DNA of 24,433 nucleotides, from the IMG/VR virus record IMGVR_UViG_3300031396_000155, positions 1 through 24,433 of that record; one strand, 5' to 3'. The stretch comes from a virus. Both the position numbers and the translations under genes were made by a program. Below are positions 5,649 to 18,135 of this stretch, piece by piece; the first letter of the stretch is position 1, and each line of letters opens with the position of its first letter. The notes under the pieces are model-generated. The model did no database searches, was not told the origin of the DNA, and saw only the letters and a program-made list of their open reading frames with translations.

Positions 5649-6536
5649 ATGGCTAATCAGTTTGGTATTGATATGGGCCAGGTCTATAAAACGACCGAGG
5701 CCGTGAAAGGCTCCCGGCAGACCCGAAAGGCCAACGCATTGGCTATGGACTGGAAGAAAGAGGACCGGGAAAGCGCACGCCAGCGCAGCCAGACCATTAA
5801 CCAGTTGCGTGCAAAGGTGGCCGCAGGTGGTGAAGAAGGCAAGCAGGCAGAGCGCCAGCTGATTGCTTTCGCGCCGGAAGAAGCCACGAAAGTTCAGGAA
5901 GCCTTTGCCAACATGGACGAGCGCCAGCGCAAGCAGGCATCTGAAAACGTGGAAACCCTGGGCCGTGTCAGTACGTTTGTCCTGGAAGGGCAGACCGTTG
6001 AAGAACAGTCACAGCGCTATCAGCGTGCCCGTGCCAACCTTGCGCCGGAAATCGTCGCCAACATGCCAGAAGAATACGATCCCAATTTTGTGCAGATGGG
6101 ACTGGCGCGTGCCCGTGAGCTTGACGATATGCTGGAAAACCCCGAACAGATCACGTTTGGTGGAGAGGACCGGCTTTACAAGGATGGCAGGCAGATCGAG
6201 TCAACCACCAGCAACGCATTGCTGAAGCAACAAGCTGGCGGATCAGGCAGTGATTTCAAGTCGTCCGATGAAAACCTGATGTTCCGCCAGGCCGCAGAGT
6301 TGTTGGGTGGGATCTTTGACAAGCAGGGCAACCTTCAGAACCTGGACCCTGAGAACAGATCCAAGGTTCAGGCCATTACCACCAGGGCCGCGGGACTATT
6401 CCAGAGTGGGGAAACCCGGACCCGATCACAGGCCGTTACCGAGGCCGCCCGCCAGTTAGGCATAAGCGTGCAGAACCTTGGTGGTGGCGGTAGTATGGAC
6501 CGCAATCAGTTACTCGAAATGTACGGCACTCAGTGA
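5649..6536 (+). CDS. Helical internal virion protein in the P22 gene 20 slot
   Basis: This 295-residue, highly charged, Gln/Glu/Arg-rich protein is almost wholly helical (KKEDRESARQRSQTINQLRAKV, EEATKVQEAFANMDERQRKQ). It has no membrane segment. A purine-rich TAGGGGG box precedes the ATG. A middle strand-turn segment (ITFGGEDRLYKDGRQIESTT) divides two helical halves. The C-terminus has a Gly-rich hinge (NLGGGGSMD). It is much shorter than P22 gp20 (about 470), and I see no clear sequence match, so the ejection-protein role rests on its place between the gp7-like gene and the giant gene. Its TGA stop forms part of the giant gene's ribosome binding site. Confidence 0.65.
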   Translation: MANQFGIDMGQVYKTTEAVKGSRQTRKANALAMDWKKEDRESARQRSQTINQLRAKVAAGGEEGKQAERQLIAFAPEEATKVQEAFANMDERQRKQASENVETLGRVSTFVLEGQTVEEQSQRYQRARANLAPEIVANMPEEYDPNFVQMGLARARELDDMLENPEQITFGGEDRLYKDGRQIESTTSNALLKQQAGGSGSDFKSSDENLMFRQAAELLGGIFDKQGNLQNLDPENRSKVQAITTRAAGLFQSGETRTRSQAVTEAARQLGISVQNLGGGGSMDRNQLLEMYGTQ

Positions 6537-6543
6537 GGCAATA

Positions 6544-9500
6544 ATGAGCGAGAACCAGCAGCCTTCCAAGGATCAGCTATTAAACGCGCTTGAGAAGGCG
6601 CACCTTGCGGGAGACACCGAAGGGGCAAAAGAGCTGGCACGCTGGCACAACGAGCTTTACCAGGCGCAACCAGAGCCCGAACCAGAGCCGCAGCGCCGTG
6701 AACTGAACCTTCAGCCCGATACGGGCCGCAAAATTGCCGACGCCGGCCGCCGTGGTCCGGCGCCTGTGTCCGCACCTGCACCACCAGCAAGACAGCCAGA
6801 GCCGCAGAGAGGACCAAACGGAACAACCGGGAGCTATGCACCGCAGCCACAAACAGGTGGCGCTACTGGCTCTTATGATGACAGAGGCCAGCAAGTAAGC
6901 GCATTTGAGCCGACGCTGTGGGATCGTATAAAAGGAATAATCCCTTCGAACAAAGATGCGGCCGTAATGGAGCTAGAGGCCCGGAAGGTTGCAGAAGAAG
7001 AAGGCATATCAATAGATCAGGTTTATAAGAATATCGGTGTTAGCCGCCCTGTGTTTAACCCGGAGGGGCGCCCGACTGTTCAGGCACTTGCCGAAGCGAG
7101 CGAGATAACCGCCAAAGAGCTTCCCGACTTAATCCCTGGCGCAGTCAATACCGTTATGAGGGCTATTCGTGGTGGTGACGAAAGCGCTTCTGACGAGGGC
7201 TGGCTTGATCGTGCCATTTCTGCAACAGAGCCTGACCAGCCTGAAAACATGGACCCCAACTATCAGGCGTTCTATGGCGTAGGTAAATCGCTTGGATACA
7301 GCCTCAGCACAATGACCGCATCCGCCATAGCGGCAGCTTTAAGCGGGCTCGCTACAGCAAACCCGGCGATAGCGGCAGGCGCAGCAGGGGCAGCTGGTGG
7401 TGCAGTAGCTTATCGCGGTAGCCGTGATGAGTTTATTGGCAGAATAAAAGATGAGCTAGATAAAAAAGCCAAGTTCATTTACGGCAGGAAGCTGAATCAG
7501 GATGAGTGGGAAAAAGCATATTCTGAATTTGATGAAGCTGCAACGAAGTACGGAGCCTGGGAGGCAGTTCCAGAAGCCGTTGGTAACCTTATTTTCTTGC
7601 GTGCAATTTCAGCTCCACTGAAGGGAATTGGAAAACAGAAGGCGGCAGAGATTGCCAAGCGGGCAGCTTCTGTATGGGGAAGCGAGAACGTCACAGAGAC
7701 AACCACTGGCGTGGGCCAAAACAGGGCAGAGCTTGAGGCTGGACTTACCGATGAAGAGTTAACCGTAGCTGACGCATTCCGCAAGCAAGTAATACCGACC
7801 ACTATCGTAACCGGCCTCATGGGTGGCGCCGGAGCTGGCGTTAAAGCTGGTGTTGAAGCAACAAAATCCAGAGAAAGGAAAATAGGCGAGGCACTGGACC
7901 GTGCTGTAGATAGCTCAGAATTTGCGCCAGCAGATCAGTTTGCAACTGAAAGTCTTGATCCTTCCCGCGCACAAATGGAACAGGTGGGCACGCCGCAGCG
8001 TCCAAGCATGGCAGAGCTTGTGTCTCAGAAGATGAAGGAGCGGGGCTTTGATTTCACTCCGCAACAGGGGCAGATGCCGCCGAACGTCGACGTGCCGTTG
8101 CAGCCAAACATACCGCCAGCGACAGCTATTCCAGAATCCGAGCAAGAAGCTGACGACGCCAGCAGTGTAGGCATTGGTTCGCAAGTAACCTTTAACGGAA
8201 AGGATGAAACCGTTGCTGACGTAATGCCGCACCCTGACTCCGGAAAGGCGATGGTATCGTTTAAATCTTCGCCCAATCGTTATGTGTTTGCCAGCCAGAC
8301 GCAGCAAACAGCAACCGATGCCAAATCACCAAAACCCAATGACCTGGTAGACGAAGAGGGCCGAAATCGCTCACCTGCATCGCAGTCAGTAAAAGAATTT
8401 AAAGAAAAAACCGGACTTGGACAGGATGGAGTAAGAGCCTTACAAAAGTCGATCATGGAAGGCCAGCCTATAACTCTGGAAGAAGCCAAAAATATAGAAA
8501 TAAAAGAAAAAACACGCAGAGATCAGGAGCGTGAGAATTACAAAAATAGAGATCCAGACAAAGACCCGGTACTGAAACGAGAACGCAAAGCGCAGGCCGA
8601 GAGAAATGAATATAGAGATGGCGTGGATATTGAGCCTGGGATTTATAAACACAAAGACCTTGACGCCACATACGAAGTAACGGAAAGCGGCACTGTAATT
8701 TCTATTGGTCCAAACGGTGAGCGATCAGGTTACGGTGTAATAACTAAAAATAACGTTGATGAGGGTGGTGTGGCTTTCGCCAGCTATGTAAAACGAGGAA
8801 TTGTAAATCGACAGGATCAACAACCCGTTGATTTACAAGGCGCCGAAAATTTACCACCAGGTGGTAAAACTGGCCAGGCCGCCGATGATATAACGCCGCA
8901 GCAAAGCGAAATGCCCGGTAACGTCGACGTGCCGTTGCAGCCAAACATACCGCCAGCGACAGCTATTCCAGAATCCGAGCAAGAAGCTGACGACGCCAGC
9001 AGTGTAGGCATTGGTTCGCAAGTAACCTTTAACGGAAAGGATGAAACCGTTGCTGACGTAATGCCGCACCCTGACTCCGGAAAGGCGATGGTATCGTTTA
9101 AATCTTCGCCCAATCGTTATGTGTTTGCCAGCCAGACGCAGCAAACAGCAACCGATGCAAAAGAAGAAGTTTCCATTGCTGCTAAAGGCTCTAATCTGCC
9201 CGAAAAAACAGAAGTGGATAGCAGCAAGGACTTCAGTGCCCTGCAAAGCCGGGTAGATAATATCAACAAGGAAGTTGACGCCGAAAGAATCCGCGTTAAA
9301 TCCGAATCAGTAACCAGAGCAATCAATAACAGCCAGCTAAACGATCAGCAAAAGCAGGAATTGTTACGCCAGTTGCCAGAGGAAAGCACTAATGAACCTA
9401 CAGAACTGGATCAACCAGGCCAGGAGCCACTGGCAGGAGCACCGGCCGAAGTTTTACCAGAGCCTGAAGAAACAGGGGACGCTGGAACCGATGCTGAAAC

Positions 9501-12500
9501 AGGCAGCGGAGAGAACGTATCAGGAGGTCAGCCAGCTGGAGGACGCCGGGTATCAACCAGACGAGGCGTTTCAGATGGTGAGGGAAAAGTACCTGTTTCC
9601 CCCGGGGGAACCGGAGAACGATCGACCCGCCAGCAACGGGCCAGGGATTCTGAACGAGGCAATGAGGACGATGGGCAGGACGCTGGAAGTGGACAGCCCA
9701 CAACCCGAGGATCTGAGGAAGCCATAGATGCGACAGAAGAAGCGGCAGAAACGGCGCCAACGTCAAAAGGCGCAACAACGCAAAGAGCAGAGCCAGCAGG
9801 CGACCGCCCGGCCAAGTTCTTCACACTGACGCCGGAAATGAACATTGGTAGTGGCGGGGCCAAAACCAAGTTCAAAAACAATATCCGAGCCATTGAAACG
9901 CTGAAGCAGCTGAACGAGGAAGGCCGCCAGGCAACACCGGAGGAACAGCAGATCCTTGCCGGGTATGTCGGGTGGGGTGGTATCCCGCAGGCGTTTGTTG
10001 GTGAGAACGGCAAGATTACCAAGGGATGGGAGAAAGAAGCCAAGCAGCTGCAAGAGGTAATGACCGATGCAGAGTATGAGGCCGCCCGCCGCAGCACGCA
10101 GGATGCCCATTACACCAGCCCGGAGATTGTCACCGAGATTTGGCAGGCCGTTAAGAATATGGGCTTCCAAGGTGGCCGTGTGCTTGAGCCTTCCGTGGGA
10201 ACGGGCAATTTCCTGGGCTTTATGCCTGGTGGCGTGCGCAGCAAGAGCAGCATTGCCGGGGTGGAGTTGGATCATATCACCGGGGGCATTGCCCAAAAAC
10301 TCTATCCCGGAGCCAACATTCAGGCGCCGTTAGGATTCCAAGAGTTCACCATGCCGGATGGCTATTTTGATCTGGCCATTGGTAACCCGCCGTTTGGCAA
10401 CCAGAAGCTGTATGACGGCAAGCGCAAAGCCTTGTCAAAAATGAGCATCCACAACTACTTCTTTGCCAAGTCTATGGCCGGGCTAAAACCCAATGGCGTG
10501 CTGGCCATGGTCGTGTCCAGTCGCCTGATGGACGGCAACAACAAGATGGCGCGTGACTATCTGGCTGAGCAGGCGGATTTGTTGGGCGCCGTGCGACTGC
10601 CAAACAATGCCTTCCTGAAGAACGCGGGAACAGAGGTCACCACCGATATCATTTTCTTGCGCAAGCGCCGGGAAGGTGAAGCGCCGGCAGGTGATTCGTG
10701 GTCCGTGGTCAACACCGTGCAGGATGCCAAGGGCATTGATGTACCACTGAACGAATACTTCAGCCGCAATCCTGGAATGATGCTTGGTGAATGGGGCGCC
10801 TATGGCTCCATGTACGGGCCGAACGAACCCGCCCTGGTAGCCAAAGAGGGCCAAGACACCAACGCATTGCTGAAGGAAGCGCTGGCCAGTCTGCCCAAAG
10901 GATTCATGGACAAGGCAGGCGCCAACCCGGTACCGGAAGAAGTCGCCATACCTACCAACGTCGAGGACGTGAAGGTGGGCAGCATGTTCATGGACGGCGA
11001 TCAGATCAGCATTCGCCTGGAAGATGAAATGGGCAAGGCACGCTCTGAAGCCGTCGACGTGCCAAGCCAGAAAGCGGAAGAACGGGTAAAAGGTCTGATT
11101 AAGGTCCGGGACGTGTTCGCGGATCTGCGTAAGGCGCAGCTGACCGAAAACGTGAAAGATGAAGCGCTGGCGGCATTGCGGGACCGACTGAACCGCGCCT
11201 ATGACCAGTTCGTGAAGAAGAACGGGCCAATCAACCTGGACGCCAATAAGCGCCTGTTCCGGGATGATCCAACGTGGCCGCAGCTGGCCGCCCTGGAAGA
11301 ATCATACGATAAAGGTATCAGCGCGACTGTTGCCAAGCGCACCGGGGAAACCCCGCGCAAGCCGAGCGCCGAGAAGGCCGCCATCTTCAGGACCAGGACA
11401 CAGCAGCCATACAAGGCACCGGACAAAGCCAGCACAGCCAAAGACGCCATGACCGCCAGCCTATCCGAAAAAGGCCAGGTCGATATGCAGTACATGGCCG
11501 AGCTTTACGGCAAAACCGAAAGCGCCATTGTGGACGAGCTCGGGGATCTGGTTTTCGAGAGCTCACCGAATAATTGGGAATCCCGCGACGAATACCTGTC
11601 TGGCAACGTAAAGCAGAAGTTGGCCATGGCCGAGCGTATGGCCAAGGATATGCCGCGCTTCCAAAAGAACGTCGACGCCCTGAAAGAAGTGCAGCCGGAA
11701 GATATCGAGGCCGTTGATATCAAGGTGAAGCCCGGCGCCCACTGGTTGCCGCCCGAAGTGGTTACAGAATTTGCCGATCATATTCTTGGCAAAGCCAGCG
11801 GCAAGGCCACGTACAACCCGGTAATGGCCAAGTGGTCTGTCCGTGGTGAGCCCACAACCGCCGCCGCGAACCAGTACGGCACCGACCGGGCCAGCGTGTC
11901 AGATATCCTCACCGCCGCGGCAAACGACAAGAGCATTGTGATTCGTGACCGAATTGACGAAAGCACCACCGTAGTCAACGAATCCGCCACCAATGCCGCC
12001 AACGAAAAGATTCAGCGAGTAAAAACCGAGTTCCGCCGATGGATCTGGCGCGACGATGCACGCAGGGAAAGACTGACCAGGCTCTATAACGATACGTTCA
12101 ACACCGATCAGTTGCGCGAGTATGACGGATCGCACCTGACATTCCCCGGCAAGGTCAGTGACGACATTGTGAAGTTGCGGCCGCACCAGGTAAACGCGGC
12201 ATGGCGCATTGTGCAAAGCGGCACCACGTTGCTGGATCACGTAGTCGGCGCCGGTAAAACCTTCACCATGATTGCAGGCTCTATGGAGCTACGCCGCACG
12301 GGCCGGGCCAGGAAACCCATGTTTGTGGTTCCGAATCACCTGGTAGGCCAGTGGGCAGAAGATTTCACCAAGCTGTATCCGAACGCGAACATTCTGGCCG
12401 CCACCAAAAAAGACTTTGAGAAGGGCAACCGTAAGCGCCTGTTCGCCAGGATCGCCACCGGGGATTGGGACGCCGTGATTGTGGCGCATTCCTCGTTTGG

Positions 12501-15500
12501 CAAGGTCGAAATGGATGCAGAGTTTCAGGACCGCTTCATTAAGCAGCAGATCCGGGATATTGATACCGCTATATCGACTATCCGGGACCAAGAGGGCAAG
12601 GGCTCCCGATCCATTAAGCAGATCGAGAAGCAAAAGGAACGACTCGAGGAAAAGCTAAAGCGCCTGTATGACGCCGAAAACAAGGACGACAACCTGACGT
12701 TTGGTGAGTTGGGTATCGATGCCCTGTTTCTGGATGAAGCGCACGAGTTCAAGAACCTGGGATTTGCCACCAGCATGACCCGTGTGGCTGGCCTGGGTAA
12801 CCCGCAGGGAAGCCAGAAAGCCGCTGATATGTTTATGAAGGTGCAATCCATCCTTGAGCGCACTGGCGGCAACAACGTGGTATTTGCGACCGGCACGCCG
12901 ATCAGCAACACCATGGCCGAAATGTATACCATGCAGCGCTTCCTGGATTATCAGATGCTTCAGGACCAGGGCATTGCACACTTTGATGCCTGGGCTCGCA
13001 TGTACGGGGAAGTGGTCACCGATTGGGAGCTGTCACCAACCGGCAACTACAAACTGAACAGCCGCTTCAGCAAGTTCGTGAATCTGCCTGAGTTAATGCA
13101 GCGTTACCTGACTTTTGGTGACGTGATTAACCGGGACGATATCAATAAGCAGTTGGCGGCACAGGGCAAGCGCCTTCCCGTTCCCAAGATCAAGGGCGGC
13201 AAGCCCAATAACATCGTTGTGGAGCGCAGCGAGGACCAGGCCGATTACATAGGCGTGCCAGTCAAAGACGACAACGGCAGAGAAACCTATCCCAAGGGCT
13301 CACTGGTGTACCGGGCTGAACACTTGCCCAAGAAGCCAGAGAAAGGCGCGGATAACATGCTCAAGATAATGAGCGATGCCCGCAAGGCCGCCCTGGATAT
13401 GCGCCTGATTGACCCTGCACTGTACGGAGACAACCCCGACAGCAAGATCAACGTGGCCGCAGACCGGATAAAGACCCTGTACGACCAGTGGACCGCCGAC
13501 AAGGGCGCACAGCTGGTATTCATCGACCTGAGTACGCCAAAAGGCGCCAAGGCTCAGGAAGCGAACCGAATCCGTGACCTGATGCAGCGTGCGGAGAATG
13601 GCGACGAGGCCGCCAGCGAACAGCTGGACAAAATGAGCCCGGACGAATTTGAAGCGCTGGATGGTGATTTCAGCGTTTACGACGACTTGCGCCAGAAGCT
13701 GATCGACAAGGGTATCCCGGAATCTGAAATCGAATACATCCATAGCGCTAACACAGAGATTCAGAAGGCCGAACTGTTTGCCAAGGTGCGAACGGGCAGG
13801 GTGAGGGTGATGATGGGCTCCACCGCCAAGATGGGCGCCGGTATGAACGTGCAGACGCGCCTGGTGGCACTACACCACATGGATGCGCCGTGGCGTCCGT
13901 CTGACCTGGAACAGCGGGAAGGCCGGATTATCCGCCAGGGTAACGAGCTTTACGAGCGCGACCCGGACGGTTTTGAGATCGAGATTAACCGTTACGCCAC
14001 CAAGCAGACGCTGGATAGCCGTATGTGGCAGACCATCGAAACCAAAGCCAGGTTTATCGAGCAGGTGCGCAAAGGCAACACCAAGCAGCGCGAAATTGAG
14101 GACTTGGGCGCCGAATCGGCCAATGCCGCCGAAATGAAAGCCGCGTCCAGTGGTAATCCGCTGATCCTGGAAGAAATGGAGCTACGCCGGAAACTGCGAA
14201 CGCTTGAGCAAGCCGAAGAAGAACACGACCGCGAACAGTTCCGGATTCGTGACGCGATTCGTCGGGAGAAAAGCATTGTTGAGCGTGGCAAGGATCGCTT
14301 GCTGAAGTACGCGCAGGACGTGAAGAAGGCCAAGGCCGCGCCCAAAGACTTCACCATGACCGTGAACGGGCAGAAAATCGACAAGCAAAAGGTAGCGGGC
14401 CAGGAGATTCTGGCCGAAGCCAACAAGATGGAAAATTCTGGCGTTGAATCAAAAGCCATTGGCAGCTACGCCGGTTTTGATATGACCCTGGACAAAGTGA
14501 CTGGCCCTTTTTTAAATAACTACATGGTGACTCTGCAAGGCGCTATGGAGCACCAAATACAGATAAACGACATTTCTTCAGCTGACCCGGCCGGACTAAC
14601 GCGCAGAATTATCAACACGATATCGGCCATTGATGCAGAGGCAAAGCAGGCCGCCAAACGGGTGAGCCAGGCCGAAAAGGATCTACCGCAGCTGGAAGAA
14701 CAGGTAGGCGAATGGGATCAGGCCGACGAATTGGCCAAGGTCAAAGCCCGCCACCAGCTGGTAATTGCCGAATTGCAGCCGAAGAAAGACCCGGAGCCAG
14801 GGCAGGAGGACGCCACCAGCGCCATGATGAGCGATATGGGGGCGGATACACCTATGCCGCAATGGCAACCACCGTACAGCATGACCGGAGTTCCCCGGCG
14901 CCCTGACAGCGACCAGTTCAAGATTGGGGATCGCACCGTAAAGCTGAAGCCCGAGGAAAAGCCGACCCGCCGTGAAGGTATCCGCTTCATGTTGCAGGAT
15001 CTGATTGGCAAGCGGATCTATTTTGGCAAGGTCCGGGGCAAGTCAAAGCTAGGCTTCTACCGCAGCAGCAACAGCGAAGTGCGCGTTAAGAACTACGACG
15101 ATGTGGAGGTAATGGCGCACGAAATGGCGCACTACCTGGATATGCACTATCGCTACAACAAGCGCTTTACACGGGAGTACAAAGACAGCAAGTACCGCAA
15201 AGAAGTGGAAGCGTTGAGCTACACCAGCAAAAAGAACCTGAAGGCCAAAGAAGGTTTTGCCGAGTTCGTGCGCCTGTGGCTGACCAACTACAGCGAAGCC
15301 AAAGCCAGAGCCCCACTGTTCACGCAGCGCTTTGAAGAAGTAATGAAGGACGATGCTGTACTGAACCGCAAGATGAAGCGCTTGCAGGATGAAATGCACC
15401 GCTGGTATTTGCAGGGGCCACGGGCACAGCTACGGGCCAAGTCTGGCCGGGAGTTGACCGCACAGCAGCAGATCCTGGAATACCAGAACAGCTATCCGCT

Positions 15501-18135
15501 TGAGCGTTACCGCCAGCAGGTGATTGATAAGATTCATGCCGCCAAGGTGGTAGAGCGCACGCTGAAAGGCGAAGTAGGCGATGCCGTCGTGAGCCCGTAC
15601 AAGCAGTTTCAGATGGTCAACGGGGCAGAATCCGTGCATGAGGCTGTGATTAAAAACGGCACGCCGCGCCTGACCGATGAAGGCTATTACGAGTTTAGCG
15701 GCAAAGGACTTAATGAAATCTTTAAGCCAGCCAGCAAACACGGATGGCGCCGGTTTGATGATCTGATGGAGTATTTCAAGGCACGCCGGGGCCAGGAGCT
15801 ACGCAAGCAGGGCCGGGAGAATCTGTTTACCGAGCAGGAGATTGACGCCGGTTTGTCCCTGGGCCAGAAATTCCCGGAGTTTCCGCAGATATTCTCTGAG
15901 TTCCAGAAATTCAACGACCGAATGCTCGAGTTCTATGTGGATATGGGGCTGATAGACGAAAGCCAGCGCGATGCATTCAAAAAGATGAACCAGAACTACG
16001 TGCCTTTCCATCGTGTGATTGAGCGGATCGAGGACGGCCACGAAATGGGCGTTAGCGAAATCGGCAGGCGCCTGACCGGGGGCACGCAGAATACCAAGGA
16101 TATCGCTGAAAACATCGTTGAGAGCATTCAGACCAATATCCGAGCCGCGATCATTGCCCGCGCCAAGGCTACGCTCTACAACGACATTATGGACAGCCAG
16201 GATGGCGCCCTGTTTGCCGCCAGGATTGCACCGGACAGCAAGAAGGTGAAGGTAGAGCAGGCACAGATGGCGTCCAAGATGGCCGAAGCCATGGTCGAAA
16301 TGGGGCTCACTGTCAGCAAAGACGGAATGATAATGGCCGGAGATCCGGACGCACAGATCACGGACGTTGAAGATATCGCGGCAATCCTGGAAGAAAACCC
16401 CGGACTGTTGAGCTTCTGGACGTTTGGCCACAAACCGCAGACTACGGAAACCTATGTGGACAGCGCCGTGGTCAACGGCAAGCGCGTGTACTTTGAAGTG
16501 CATGAGCCATTGCTGGTGGAAATGCTTACCGGCCTGAGAGGGCTACGCAGTGGCGCCGTGATGAATGCCCTGTTTCGGGTGAAGAACCTTCAGACCCGAA
16601 CCGTAACCAGTATGTTTCAGTTCCTGGGGCCGAACGCAGTAAGGGATACCGTGAGTGCGTCCATAATGAGCCGCAACCGATTTATCCCGATCTACAGCAC
16701 GCTGAAGGGCATGGGACACTTCATGTTCAACACGCAGACCTACAAGGACTTCAGGCTGCAAGGGGGCGGATACGGCACCAGGATCGAGGCCAGGACACAG
16801 GAAACCCGCGACCGGCGCCGTCTGGACTTGCCGAGTGAGTCGGCATGGGATGCGGCCGCAAAGTTGCTAGCCGGATGGGACCGCTTCACCAGCGCGTTTG
16901 AGTACGGATCGCGCATTGGTGATTACGAGGTTGGCGTGAAGTCTGGCACGTCTCCGATGGAGGCCGCCTGGGAAGCCAGAGAGATTGCCACCGACTTTAG
17001 CAAAATGGGCCGCAATGAGTTGTGGGCTAATTTCCTTCGCACTGTTCCGTTTATGAACGCCGGTATTCAGGGCCTGGACAAGTCAGCCAGGGAGTTGGTC
17101 GAAATGAAAGGCGAAATGAAGGGCGCCAACTTTGCCAAAATGACCGACAAGAAGGCCGCTTTTCTGATGAAAGGTGGCGTGCTGACGGCCATGACCGCCA
17201 TTCTGTGGTTGCTGAATCACGACGACGAGCGATACAAGCAGCTGACGCCGGACCAGAAAGCCCGCTTCTGGTGGATCTTTCCGCCAGGTGCAGACACGCC
17301 GTTCAAGATTCCGCGCCCGTATGACGTGGGCCATATCTTTGGAACCCTTCCGGAAGTCGGTTTGGACTACATGGAGAACCGGGACGGCAAAGAAGCATCC
17401 GAGCACTTGGCCTGGGCACTGGTCAACACTGTGGGCATTGGTGACTATCCCGGCATCCTTCAGCCATGGATCGAAGTTCAGCGTAACGAGAAGTTCACCG
17501 GGGCGCCCGTGGTCCCTCAGTTTATGATGGACCTGCCCGCCGAATACCAGTACACCGATCGCACGCCGATCATGTACCGGAAATTGGGCGAGTACCTGGG
17601 TGTATCGCCACTGGTGGCCGAGCATTACAGCAAAGGCTTCTTGCGCTACGTGGAGATGATTGTTGCGGATGCTTCAGAGGCCGCACTGTGGAAAACAGAC
17701 GAATGGGGACCGCGCCCGTTTAACCGAGGCACGCCTATCGACTACATGACGCACCAGTTCGTGGGCCAGAAAGTGCCATACCGCACAAAATGGACAGAAG
17801 GGTATTGGGATCTGAAAGTGAAGGCCGCCGCCGCACAGCAGACGTTCAACATGCTCAAGCGTGAGGCCATCCGTAATCCGAGCAAAGCGCCGGACTTTGC
17901 CAGTGAAAAGGTCAATCAGATTCTTATAGGGCTCAACGGGGCCTTCAGTCAGGTCGACAGCGCTTTTTCAGATCAGCAGGAAATCATTGCCTCGTACAAA
18001 TACAACGAGAACATGACCGCTGAAGAAAAAGAAGCCAAGATCGAAAGCTACTACGAGCAGAAAAACGAGACACTATCTAAGGTCTACCGCCAGGCCAAAG
18101 AAGCACTGGAACAAGTACACGTAGAAATGCCGTAG
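6544..18135 (+). CDS. Giant polyvalent protein: ejection-like N-terminus, N6-adenine methylase, SNF2 helicase, zinc peptidase, LPD38-like C-terminus
   Basis: This is a 3863-residue protein in the P22 gene 16 slot. The ATG at 6544 has GAGG at 6535-6538, made by the upstream stop; starts further upstream lack this. Residues 1-110 have a short helix (AHLAGDTEGAKELARWHN) then a Pro/Gln-rich linker. About 250-290 is hydrophobic Ala/Gly, like ejection proteins. Residues 514-593 and 793-872 are an exact duplicate. About 950-1090 is disordered. From 1092 comes the N6-adenine methylase: motif I at 1213-1225 (LEPSVGTGNF), NPPF at 1281-1284. The helicase has GAGKT at 1902-1906, DEAH at 2064-2067, ATGTP at 2115-2119 and QREGRIIRQG at 2457-2466. 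After coiled coils, HEMAH at 2859-2863 with EGFAE at 2903-2907 marks a gluzincin-type peptidase. The end, from about 3340, resembles LPD38. Known relatives are thought to be injected with the DNA and protect it; that role here is inference. Confidence 0.88.
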   Translation: MSENQQPSKDQLLNALEKAHLAGDTEGAKELARWHNELYQAQPEPEPEPQRRELNLQPDTGRKIADAGRRGPAPVSAPAPPARQPEPQRGPNGTTGSYAPQPQTGGATGSYDDRGQQVSAFEPTLWDRIKGIIPSNKDAAVMELEARKVAEEEGISIDQVYKNIGVSRPVFNPEGRPTVQALAEASEITAKELPDLIPGAVNTVMRAIRGGDESASDEGWLDRAISATEPDQPENMDPNYQAFYGVGKSLGYSLSTMTASAIAAALSGLATANPAIAAGAAGAAGGAVAYRGSRDEFIGRIKDELDKKAKFIYGRKLNQDEWEKAYSEFDEAATKYGAWEAVPEAVGNLIFLRAISAPLKGIGKQKAAEIAKRAASVWGSENVTETTTGVGQNRAELEAGLTDEELTVADAFRKQVIPTTIVTGLMGGAGAGVKAGVEATKSRERKIGEALDRAVDSSEFAPADQFATESLDPSRAQMEQVGTPQRPSMAELVSQKMKERGFDFTPQQGQMPPNVDVPLQPNIPPATAIPESEQEADDASSVGIGSQVTFNGKDETVADVMPHPDSGKAMVSFKSSPNRYVFASQTQQTATDAKSPKPNDLVDEEGRNRSPASQSVKEFKEKTGLGQDGVRALQKSIMEGQPITLEEAKNIEIKEKTRRDQERENYKNRDPDKDPVLKRERKAQAERNEYRDGVDIEPGIYKHKDLDATYEVTESGTVISIGPNGERSGYGVITKNNVDEGGVAFASYVKRGIVNRQDQQPVDLQGAENLPPGGKTGQAADDITPQQSEMPGNVDVPLQPNIPPATAIPESEQEADDASSVGIGSQVTFNGKDETVADVMPHPDSGKAMVSFKSSPNRYVFASQTQQTATDAKEEVSIAAKGSNLPEKTEVDSSKDFSALQSRVDNINKEVDAERIRVKSESVTRAINNSQLNDQQKQELLRQLPEESTNEPTELDQPGQEPLAGAPAEVLPEPEETGDAGTDAETGSGENVSGGQPAGGRRVSTRRGVSDGEGKVPVSPGGTGERSTRQQRARDSERGNEDDGQDAGSGQPTTRGSEEAIDATEEAAETAPTSKGATTQRAEPAGDRPAKFFTLTPEMNIGSGGAKTKFKNNIRAIETLKQLNEEGRQATPEEQQILAGYVGWGGIPQAFVGENGKITKGWEKEAKQLQEVMTDAEYEAARRSTQDAHYTSPEIVTEIWQAVKNMGFQGGRVLEPSVGTGNFLGFMPGGVRSKSSIAGVELDHITGGIAQKLYPGANIQAPLGFQEFTMPDGYFDLAIGNPPFGNQKLYDGKRKALSKMSIHNYFFAKSMAGLKPNGVLAMVVSSRLMDGNNKMARDYLAEQADLLGAVRLPNNAFLKNAGTEVTTDIIFLRKRREGEAPAGDSWSVVNTVQDAKGIDVPLNEYFSRNPGMMLGEWGAYGSMYGPNEPALVAKEGQDTNALLKEALASLPKGFMDKAGANPVPEEVAIPTNVEDVKVGSMFMDGDQISIRLEDEMGKARSEAVDVPSQKAEERVKGLIKVRDVFADLRKAQLTENVKDEALAALRDRLNRAYDQFVKKNGPINLDANKRLFRDDPTWPQLAALEESYDKGISATVAKRTGETPRKPSAEKAAIFRTRTQQPYKAPDKASTAKDAMTASLSEKGQVDMQYMAELYGKTESAIVDELGDLVFESSPNNWESRDEYLSGNVKQKLAMAERMAKDMPRFQKNVDALKEVQPEDIEAVDIKVKPGAHWLPPEVVTEFADHILGKASGKATYNPVMAKWSVRGEPTTAAANQYGTDRASVSDILTAAANDKSIVIRDRIDESTTVVNESATNAANEKIQRVKTEFRRWIWRDDARRERLTRLYNDTFNTDQLREYDGSHLTFPGKVSDDIVKLRPHQVNAAWRIVQSGTTLLDHVVGAGKTFTMIAGSMELRRTGRARKPMFVVPNHLVGQWAEDFTKLYPNANILAATKKDFEKGNRKRLFARIATGDWDAVIVAHSSFGKVEMDAEFQDRFIKQQIRDIDTAISTIRDQEGKGSRSIKQIEKQKERLEEKLKRLYDAENKDDNLTFGELGIDALFLDEAHEFKNLGFATSMTRVAGLGNPQGSQKAADMFMKVQSILERTGGNNVVFATGTPISNTMAEMYTMQRFLDYQMLQDQGIAHFDAWARMYGEVVTDWELSPTGNYKLNSRFSKFVNLPELMQRYLTFGDVINRDDINKQLAAQGKRLPVPKIKGGKPNNIVVERSEDQADYIGVPVKDDNGRETYPKGSLVYRAEHLPKKPEKGADNMLKIMSDARKAALDMRLIDPALYGDNPDSKINVAADRIKTLYDQWTADKGAQLVFIDLSTPKGAKAQEANRIRDLMQRAENGDEAASEQLDKMSPDEFEALDGDFSVYDDLRQKLIDKGIPESEIEYIHSANTEIQKAELFAKVRTGRVRVMMGSTAKMGAGMNVQTRLVALHHMDAPWRPSDLEQREGRIIRQGNELYERDPDGFEIEINRYATKQTLDSRMWQTIETKARFIEQVRKGNTKQREIEDLGAESANAAEMKAASSGNPLILEEMELRRKLRTLEQAEEEHDREQFRIRDAIRREKSIVERGKDRLLKYAQDVKKAKAAPKDFTMTVNGQKIDKQKVAGQEILAEANKMENSGVESKAIGSYAGFDMTLDKVTGPFLNNYMVTLQGAMEHQIQINDISSADPAGLTRRIINTISAIDAEAKQAAKRVSQAEKDLPQLEEQVGEWDQADELAKVKARHQLVIAELQPKKDPEPGQEDATSAMMSDMGADTPMPQWQPPYSMTGVPRRPDSDQFKIGDRTVKLKPEEKPTRREGIRFMLQDLIGKRIYFGKVRGKSKLGFYRSSNSEVRVKNYDDVEVMAHEMAHYLDMHYRYNKRFTREYKDSKYRKEVEALSYTSKKNLKAKEGFAEFVRLWLTNYSEAKARAPLFTQRFEEVMKDDAVLNRKMKRLQDEMHRWYLQGPRAQLRAKSGRELTAQQQILEYQNSYPLERYRQQVIDKIHAAKVVERTLKGEVGDAVVSPYKQFQMVNGAESVHEAVIKNGTPRLTDEGYYEFSGKGLNEIFKPASKHGWRRFDDLMEYFKARRGQELRKQGRENLFTEQEIDAGLSLGQKFPEFPQIFSEFQKFNDRMLEFYVDMGLIDESQRDAFKKMNQNYVPFHRVIERIEDGHEMGVSEIGRRLTGGTQNTKDIAENIVESIQTNIRAAIIARAKATLYNDIMDSQDGALFAARIAPDSKKVKVEQAQMASKMAEAMVEMGLTVSKDGMIMAGDPDAQITDVEDIAAILEENPGLLSFWTFGHKPQTTETYVDSAVVNGKRVYFEVHEPLLVEMLTGLRGLRSGAVMNALFRVKNLQTRTVTSMFQFLGPNAVRDTVSASIMSRNRFIPIYSTLKGMGHFMFNTQTYKDFRLQGGGYGTRIEARTQETRDRRRLDLPSESAWDAAAKLLAGWDRFTSAFEYGSRIGDYEVGVKSGTSPMEAAWEAREIATDFSKMGRNELWANFLRTVPFMNAGIQGLDKSARELVEMKGEMKGANFAKMTDKKAAFLMKGGVLTAMTAILWLLNHDDERYKQLTPDQKARFWWIFPPGADTPFKIPRPYDVGHIFGTLPEVGLDYMENRDGKEASEHLAWALVNTVGIGDYPGILQPWIEVQRNEKFTGAPVVPQFMMDLPAEYQYTDRTPIMYRKLGEYLGVSPLVAEHYSKGFLRYVEMIVADASEAALWKTDEWGPRPFNRGTPIDYMTHQFVGQKVPYRTKWTEGYWDLKVKAAAAQQTFNMLKREAIRNPSKAPDFASEKVNQILIGLNGAFSQVDSAFSDQQEIIASYKYNENMTAEEKEAKIESYYEQKNETLSKVYRQAKEALEQVHVEMP
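8083..8321 (+). repeat. Copy 1 of a perfect 239-bp direct repeat inside the giant gene
   Basis: By direct comparison, bases 8083-8321 and 8920-9158 are identical over 239 bp. The offset of 837 bp is 279 codons, so the duplication is in frame. It encodes a Pro-rich lead (NVDVPLQPNIPPATAIP) and a small beta domain (GSQVTFNGKDETVADVM, then GKAMVSFKSSPNRYVF). Diverged similarity (TPQQ..MP.NV) extends about 25 bases upstream of each copy. Confidence 0.97.
8920..9158 (+). repeat. Copy 2 of the perfect 239-bp direct repeat
   Basis: Identical to 8083-8321. The 598 bp between the copies is visibly richer in A and T than its surroundings, especially 8395-8600, and encodes a Lys/Glu-rich helix plus a second small beta domain (GIYKHKDLDATYEVTESG). 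Recombination between copies would remove 837 bp without changing the reading frame. Confidence 0.97.
9392..9727 (+). CDS. Nested gene in the +1 frame of the giant ORF; 111-residue probable phage protein
   Basis: An ATG at 9392 is preceded by AGAGG at 9378-9382 (9-base spacing). The product begins MNLQNWINQARSHWQEHRPK and continues with KQAAERTYQEVSQLEDAGYQ and EAFQMVREKYLFPPGEPEND. This amphipathic, Trp-containing, mainly helical protein looks globular and resembles small conserved phage proteins I have seen with a WxxxR-type helix and a 'VREKYLFP' end; function unknown. By hand count about 77 percent of its third codon positions are G or C, as expected for this phage. In the same bases the giant frame has A-rich third positions, many GGA, CGA and AGA codons, and only a Gly/Glu/Ser/Thr-rich linker. 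The nested frame therefore looks like the older coding frame. An in-frame TAA at 9338 makes a frameshift product less likely than separate initiation. Confidence 0.6.
   Translation: MNLQNWINQARSHWQEHRPKFYQSLKKQGTLEPMLKQAAERTYQEVSQLEDAGYQPDEAFQMVREKYLFPPGEPENDRPASNGPGILNEAMRTMGRTLEVDSPQPEDLRKP
9728..9829 (+). CDS. Possible second nested micro-ORF, very basic 33-residue peptide
   Basis: The ATG directly follows the TAG of the 111-codon nested ORF and has GAGGA at 9715-9719, 8 bases upstream. The product starts MRQKKRQKRRQRQKAQQRKE and ends at a TGA at 9827. It is almost all Lys, Arg and Gln for 20 residues, which could bind nucleic acid. The same bases in the giant frame encode an Ala/Glu/Thr linker, so base composition alone could produce such a peptide. 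It is reported because of the adjacent start, ribosome binding site and frame shared with the preceding nested ORF. Confidence 0.28.
   Translation: MRQKKRQKRRQRQKAQQRKEQSQQATARPSSSH

Follow-up and report, generated by a model that had tools for sequence, protein, structure and literature searches.

The window, the whole stretch of DNA analysed here, is a virus record of 24.4 kb in which genes for head closure (Hc3), DNA ejection and tail fibres lie around an 11.7-kb DarB-like open reading frame (positions 6478-18135, plus strand). The related Vibrio phage VvAW1 has a DarB-like giant ORF in similar gene surroundings. The giant ORF of the window matches PHROG 10089 (DarB-like antirestriction) and the Pfam families Eco57I, ResIII/SNF2, Helicase_C and LPD38, and its true start, judged by eye, is probably the ATG at 6544. 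An adenine methylase domain (Eco57I, PF07669, E 6e-11) is encoded at 10342-10587 and an SF2 helicase region, from ResIII/SNF2 to Helicase_C (PF04851, PF00176, PF00271), at 12169-13941, both on the plus strand. This fusion of an adenine methylase to an SF2 helicase, together with the PHROG match, places the outer frame among the DarB-like proteins, and is shared with DarB of P1 and other DarB-like polyvalent proteins (PMC5512222). P1 DarB begins directly with the methylase, whereas in the podovirus giants an N-terminal module and a nested gene come ahead of it. Packaging in the virion and protection of the DNA from restriction have been reported for P1, and the giant protein of phage JC1 has been reported in the virion (PMC9144972). 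A megablast search of phages with the methylase region returned no close relative. A direct repeat of 277 nt (8049-8325 and 8886-9162, 95% identical) is found within the giant ORF, a short distance before the nested gene.

The nested gene itself occupies positions 9392-9727 of the plus strand, with an ATG at 9392 and a stop codon that ends at 9727, and its 111 codons are read in the +1 frame relative to the giant ORF. A stop codon at 9338-9340 closes the nested frame upstream of the start, so that the stop-to-stop stretch covers 9341-9724 plus the final stop, and a Shine-Dalgarno core (AGGA, plus strand, 9380-9383) stands 8 nt 5' of the ATG. The preliminary description of this DNA had noted this box, as well as GC-rich third positions in the nested frame and A-rich third positions in the giant frame over the same bases, and all three hold. 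GC3 is 77.5% in the nested frame; over the nested gene, 42% of the third positions in the giant frame are A and its GC3 is 38%, and in the giant gene downstream of the overlap GC3 is 70%. RNA structure at the nested start is not unusual (z 0.11). When the giant's synonymous codons are permuted, an ATG-initiated ORF of at least 111 codons appears in the nested frame in 21% of permutations (P ~0.21), so we dropped ORF length as evidence for the gene. The nested ORF is far above chance through its homology, its conserved start and Shine-Dalgarno sequence, and frame-specific selection, not through its length.

A tblastn search with the nested product, as the preliminary description had proposed, finds relatives in 21 phage records that represent about 11 distinct phages (VvAW1, PBC5, Itty13, SopranoGao, LASTA/SJM3, Pavtok, Stean, PEp14, Atu_ph08, POI1126 and Mwe-JY07), and further relatives occur in IMG/VR metaviromes and bacterial genomes. 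No homologue was found in the plasmid collection. Of 114 fetched loci, 99 have the gene nested with the same frame offset, and residues invariant among 79 sequences include H13, W14, P19, L31, T42 and A59. In all phage records examined it lacks a separate annotation: the match lies under the giant CDS or, in Itty13, under a CDS on the opposite strand. The genes annotated over the giant ORF of Itty13 (L021, 3905-15163) sit on the strand opposite to that of the conserved ORF, which has more than 4000 codons. We found no earlier description of a nested gene in such giants in the literature searched, a search whose scope did not extend to the original Bcep22 genome paper.

The distribution of the gene was also counted starting from the methylase, in 80 IMG/VR loci, many of which are related to one another, so that a number of loci here does not equal a number of independent events. 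A match to the small-gene profile occurs at the expected place and frame in 65 loci, and there a further 13 have a diverged form, most with a Shine-Dalgarno sequence and an ATG; thus 78 of the 80 carry the small gene, and in the other two neither form was found. Most of the 13 diverged members were used to build a second profile, which they match by construction, and their kinship is suggested instead by place, frame, the Shine-Dalgarno sequence and a comparison of the two profiles (hhalign probability 95%). The diverged form is present in the Bcep22-like phages JC1 and BcepIL02 and in phages 8P and USP_18. In JC1 (L274, 2657-2992) and BcepIL02 (L275, 2657-2977) it is an unannotated nested ORF with a strong Shine-Dalgarno sequence (aaggag), whose C-terminal half looks TnpV-like by eye. 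The small gene was not found in P1 DarB, Bordetella PHB04, a Streptococcus element or two faecal contigs.

The gene appears to have its own translation start. In 68 of 81 unique nested loci the conserved HW is preceded, 12 or 13 codons earlier, by an ATG, and in 72 of the 81 a Shine-Dalgarno core of at least 4 nt lies upstream of the nested start, mostly 5-10 nt away; the background is 18% for positions in the same phase and 10% for other ATGs in that phase. In many relatives a stop codon closes the nested frame just 2-5 codons ahead of the ATG. A rival reading is a programmed +1 frameshift, by which ribosomes in the giant frame would slip into the nested frame and terminate there, yielding a short ejection protein whose C-terminal domain is helical; in other systems, frameshifting can be stimulated by SD-like sites. 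In the record of PBC5 (L020, 1767-8309) the giant gene is split and the upstream CDS does run to its end in the nested frame; PHROG 938 has the same construction. However, PBC5 is a single old record that may carry, and probably does carry, a frameshift error. The start codon itself is conserved at a spacing of the initiation type, stops in the nested frame lie close before it in many relatives, and its methionine is also where free homologues such as L117 begin, with a normal Shine-Dalgarno sequence. We therefore consider frameshifting very improbable. Internal initiation is favoured because the start and its Shine-Dalgarno sequence are conserved and upstream stops are close by; the conservation strongly suggests that ribosomes would start the nested gene internally, at its own Shine-Dalgarno sequence and ATG on the giant mRNA.

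The split PBC5 record also explains why the nested protein stands at the end of a family labelled endolysin. The last 100 positions of PHROG 938 correspond to the nested protein, and 21 of 21 members of our first alignment match it; the join to an upstream transglycosylase-type protein comes from the PBC5 record and is not a general fusion.

Selection was compared in the two frames by simple counting rather than a likelihood model, with changes classed in both frames and pairs that share no locus. For the nested core, omega is 0.23 (0.16-0.31) in the nested frame and 1.49 (0.97-2.38) in the giant frame; the corresponding values are 0.25 (0.17-0.36) and 1.55 (1.27-1.97) for copies in Verrucomicrobia, and 0.48 (0.28-0.62) and 1.50 (1.13-1.98) for the diverged branch, the slight excess over 1 in the giant frame stemming from the counting method and not being read as positive selection. 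In the downstream methylase region the same method gives 0.15 for the giant frame and 0.83 for a pseudo-nested frame. This control is reversed, and thus the method responds to the coding frame. On another rival reading the nested frame is an untranslated shadow that looks conserved only through conservation of the giant protein. The nested frame is under purifying selection and the giant frame is not, which strongly disfavours a shadow ORF, as do the conserved start signals and the existence of homologues outside the giant gene. Although the ORF is unremarkable in length and no examined record annotates it, we regard a shadow as extremely improbable, more so even than frameshifting. The comparison of dN/dS in both frames that the preliminary description had called for comes out on the side of its proposal that this is a real gene, which now has homologues beyond the outer frame, conserved start signals and selection of its own. 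Two outcomes that it had named as counting against the proposal, a lack of stand-alone homologues and purifying selection confined to the giant frame, were not observed.

The giant frame over the nested gene (9391-9726, plus strand) has a different character. No giant-frame stop occurs over the overlap in 81 loci, against 89.7 expected when synonymous codons of the nested frame are permuted, while the third frame has 441 stops against 412 expected; the giant frame is thus kept from closing here. We infer from this absence of stops that the outer frame is translated. Across relatives, hydrophobic residues make up 10% of the giant frame over the overlap and 30% in the methylase region. The segment is of low complexity, and the earlier view of it as a disordered linker agrees with this composition and with residues that are free to change. 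The giant protein probably reads through the overlap as a disordered tether, the exact residues of which would hardly matter.

AlphaFold2 predicts the nested product to be a domain of four helices (residues 3-67, pLDDT >90) followed by a disordered tail, in keeping with the helical product first proposed from the translation. No real match was found in the PDB by sequence or by fold, a search of viral folds gave a strong match to nothing but the giant protein of PBC5 itself, and PADLOC and NCBIfam had no match. Literal membership of the window protein in the TnpV family (PF14198) was considered and dropped, its score of 16.5 bits being below the Pfam cut-off of 27. The free homologue L137 passes the cut-off (31.9 bits), 15 of 21 diverse members of the family match TnpV (up to E 1.5e-10), and hhalign aligns the family with TnpV genes at 93% over 50 columns. 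Weak matches to DUF5828, EcoEI_R_C and NCBIfam models were ignored, each being limited to one or two members with poor E-values. The small-protein family thus seems to be a distant, TnpV-like one, with kinship at the level of a superfamily. Like the TnpV proteins of Tn4451-type mobile elements, the window protein is small and helical, and its family resembles theirs in the profile comparison; unlike them, it is without the N-terminal part of TnpV and its gene is nested in a methylase-helicase gene.

A further question is which of the two frames came first. Homologues that stand free are found in Variovorax (L126), Desulforudis (L137), a Bacillota genome (L138) and others, and the TnpV-like free relatives are genes with no adjoining methylase-helicase. 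In the Bacillota genome (L138, 5575-5962) the free homologue stands after a gene that, judged by eye, looks HicB-like and before an integrase, a setting that recalls a mobile element. Such short and divergent proteins do not allow a rooted tree, but because of the codon pattern, the selection and the free relatives, the nested frame is probably the older one, as originally proposed, and the giant frame was probably overprinted on it as a disordered linker. The opposite polarity, in which the small gene was born by overprinting in the linker of a methylase gene and later escaped, draws on the fact that the overlap is very widespread and old, and that some close free copies (L117) resemble prophage remnants beside pieces of transposase. 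It accounts less well for free TnpV-like relatives, for a normal codon pattern and selection that are present in the nested frame and in neither respect in the giant frame, and for methylase-helicases outside the group (P1) that have no overlapped segment. We consider it unlikely.

The preliminary description had placed the overprinting at the fusion of two neighbouring genes, and this part of its proposal is not supported. Methylase-helicase genes that are not fused to an ejection module (19 copies in Verrucomicrobia, L135, and the phage contigs L104 and L217) carry the same overlap, with the small gene in the same frame over the 5' part of the large gene. The overlap is present with and without the fusion and is therefore independent of it. 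Nor was any case found of a fully non-overlapping small gene standing directly before an intact methylase-helicase gene, an arrangement that the preliminary description had hoped to see. The methylase tree has three changes between the fused and separate states and does not indicate which is ancestral. In most Verrucomicrobia copies the ATG of the large gene lies about 50-90 nt upstream of the small gene, and one copy (L187) has one stop in the large frame. Between the ATG and the overlap, the large gene of most Verrucomicrobia copies encodes a motif of the QL(S/D)LF type (L172-L191), which is the consensus of beta-clamp-binding peptides (PMC11139829). Similar motifs are seen at a comparable place in Streptococcus (L277, QELNLF) and Bacteroides (L279, NELGLF).

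Taken jointly, the reality of the gene, its internal start and the greater age of its frame are, in our judgement, highly likely on the genomic comparisons presented here. On this reading the ORF is an independent, translated gene that lies inside a DarB-like polyvalent gene, in its +1 frame, and encodes a small protein of the TnpV-like superfamily, with four helices and a disordered tail. This gene would have come first, the large frame later being extended through it. The corresponding stretch of the giant would have become a stop-free disordered tether from the N-terminal module to the methylase-helicase, on whose residues we detect no selection. A comparable arrangement is that of the Rz1 spanin gene, reported to lie inside Rz in JC1 and in Bcep22-like phages (PMC9144972), where a small gene also lies wholly within a larger one, on the same strand in another frame and in the same kind of phage. 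In the present case, however, the outer gene is a giant polyvalent one, and whatever selection can be detected lies in the nested frame, the outer one being merely maintained as open.

What the small protein does is a matter for more tentative suggestions. We suspect that it may be a dedicated partner of the methylase-helicase, either a holding or folding partner or a loader into the virion. We favour such a role because the position of the small gene, directly ahead of the methylase core, is the same in phages and in unfused bacterial genes; the link to the methylase-helicase is one of genomic position, and we hold it as a possibility rather than as probable. P1 DarB works without a nested gene. 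Atu_ph08 and Bcep22 have been reported to be without a homologue of DarA, presumed to be required for DarB to enter the capsid (PMC6630229), and a loader or holding role is for this reason our first guess. The nested protein could instead be real but act alone, for instance in anti-defence or as an excision-type accessory of mobile elements. Free homologues do stand alone, one of them beside an integrase (L138), and for TnpV of Tn4451 a part in excision has been postulated, on the model of lambda Xis (PMC3158075). The conserved place before the methylase core and the lack of any match in PADLOC or NCBIfam speak against independence, to which we would nevertheless give a substantial chance, somewhat short of even.

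Every annotated record of these phages that we examined thus omits a conserved gene, which escaped notice by lying entirely within a larger one. The small gene offers a clean case in which all detectable selection lies in the smaller frame and the larger frame is merely kept open, shows how overprinting a helical gene can yield a disordered linker, and explains why PHROG 938, a family of supposed endolysins, has this protein at its end. The small protein also becomes a candidate helper for DarB-like proteins in the phages reported to be without DarA. It is conceivable, though we would not yet call it probable, that almost all DarB-like giants of this class hide an ancient second gene, whose product would be dedicated to loading, chaperoning or inhibiting the methylase-helicase packaged in the virion and would perhaps replace the DarA-type helper that these phages lack, the flexible tether of the giant being the helical gene read one frame over.
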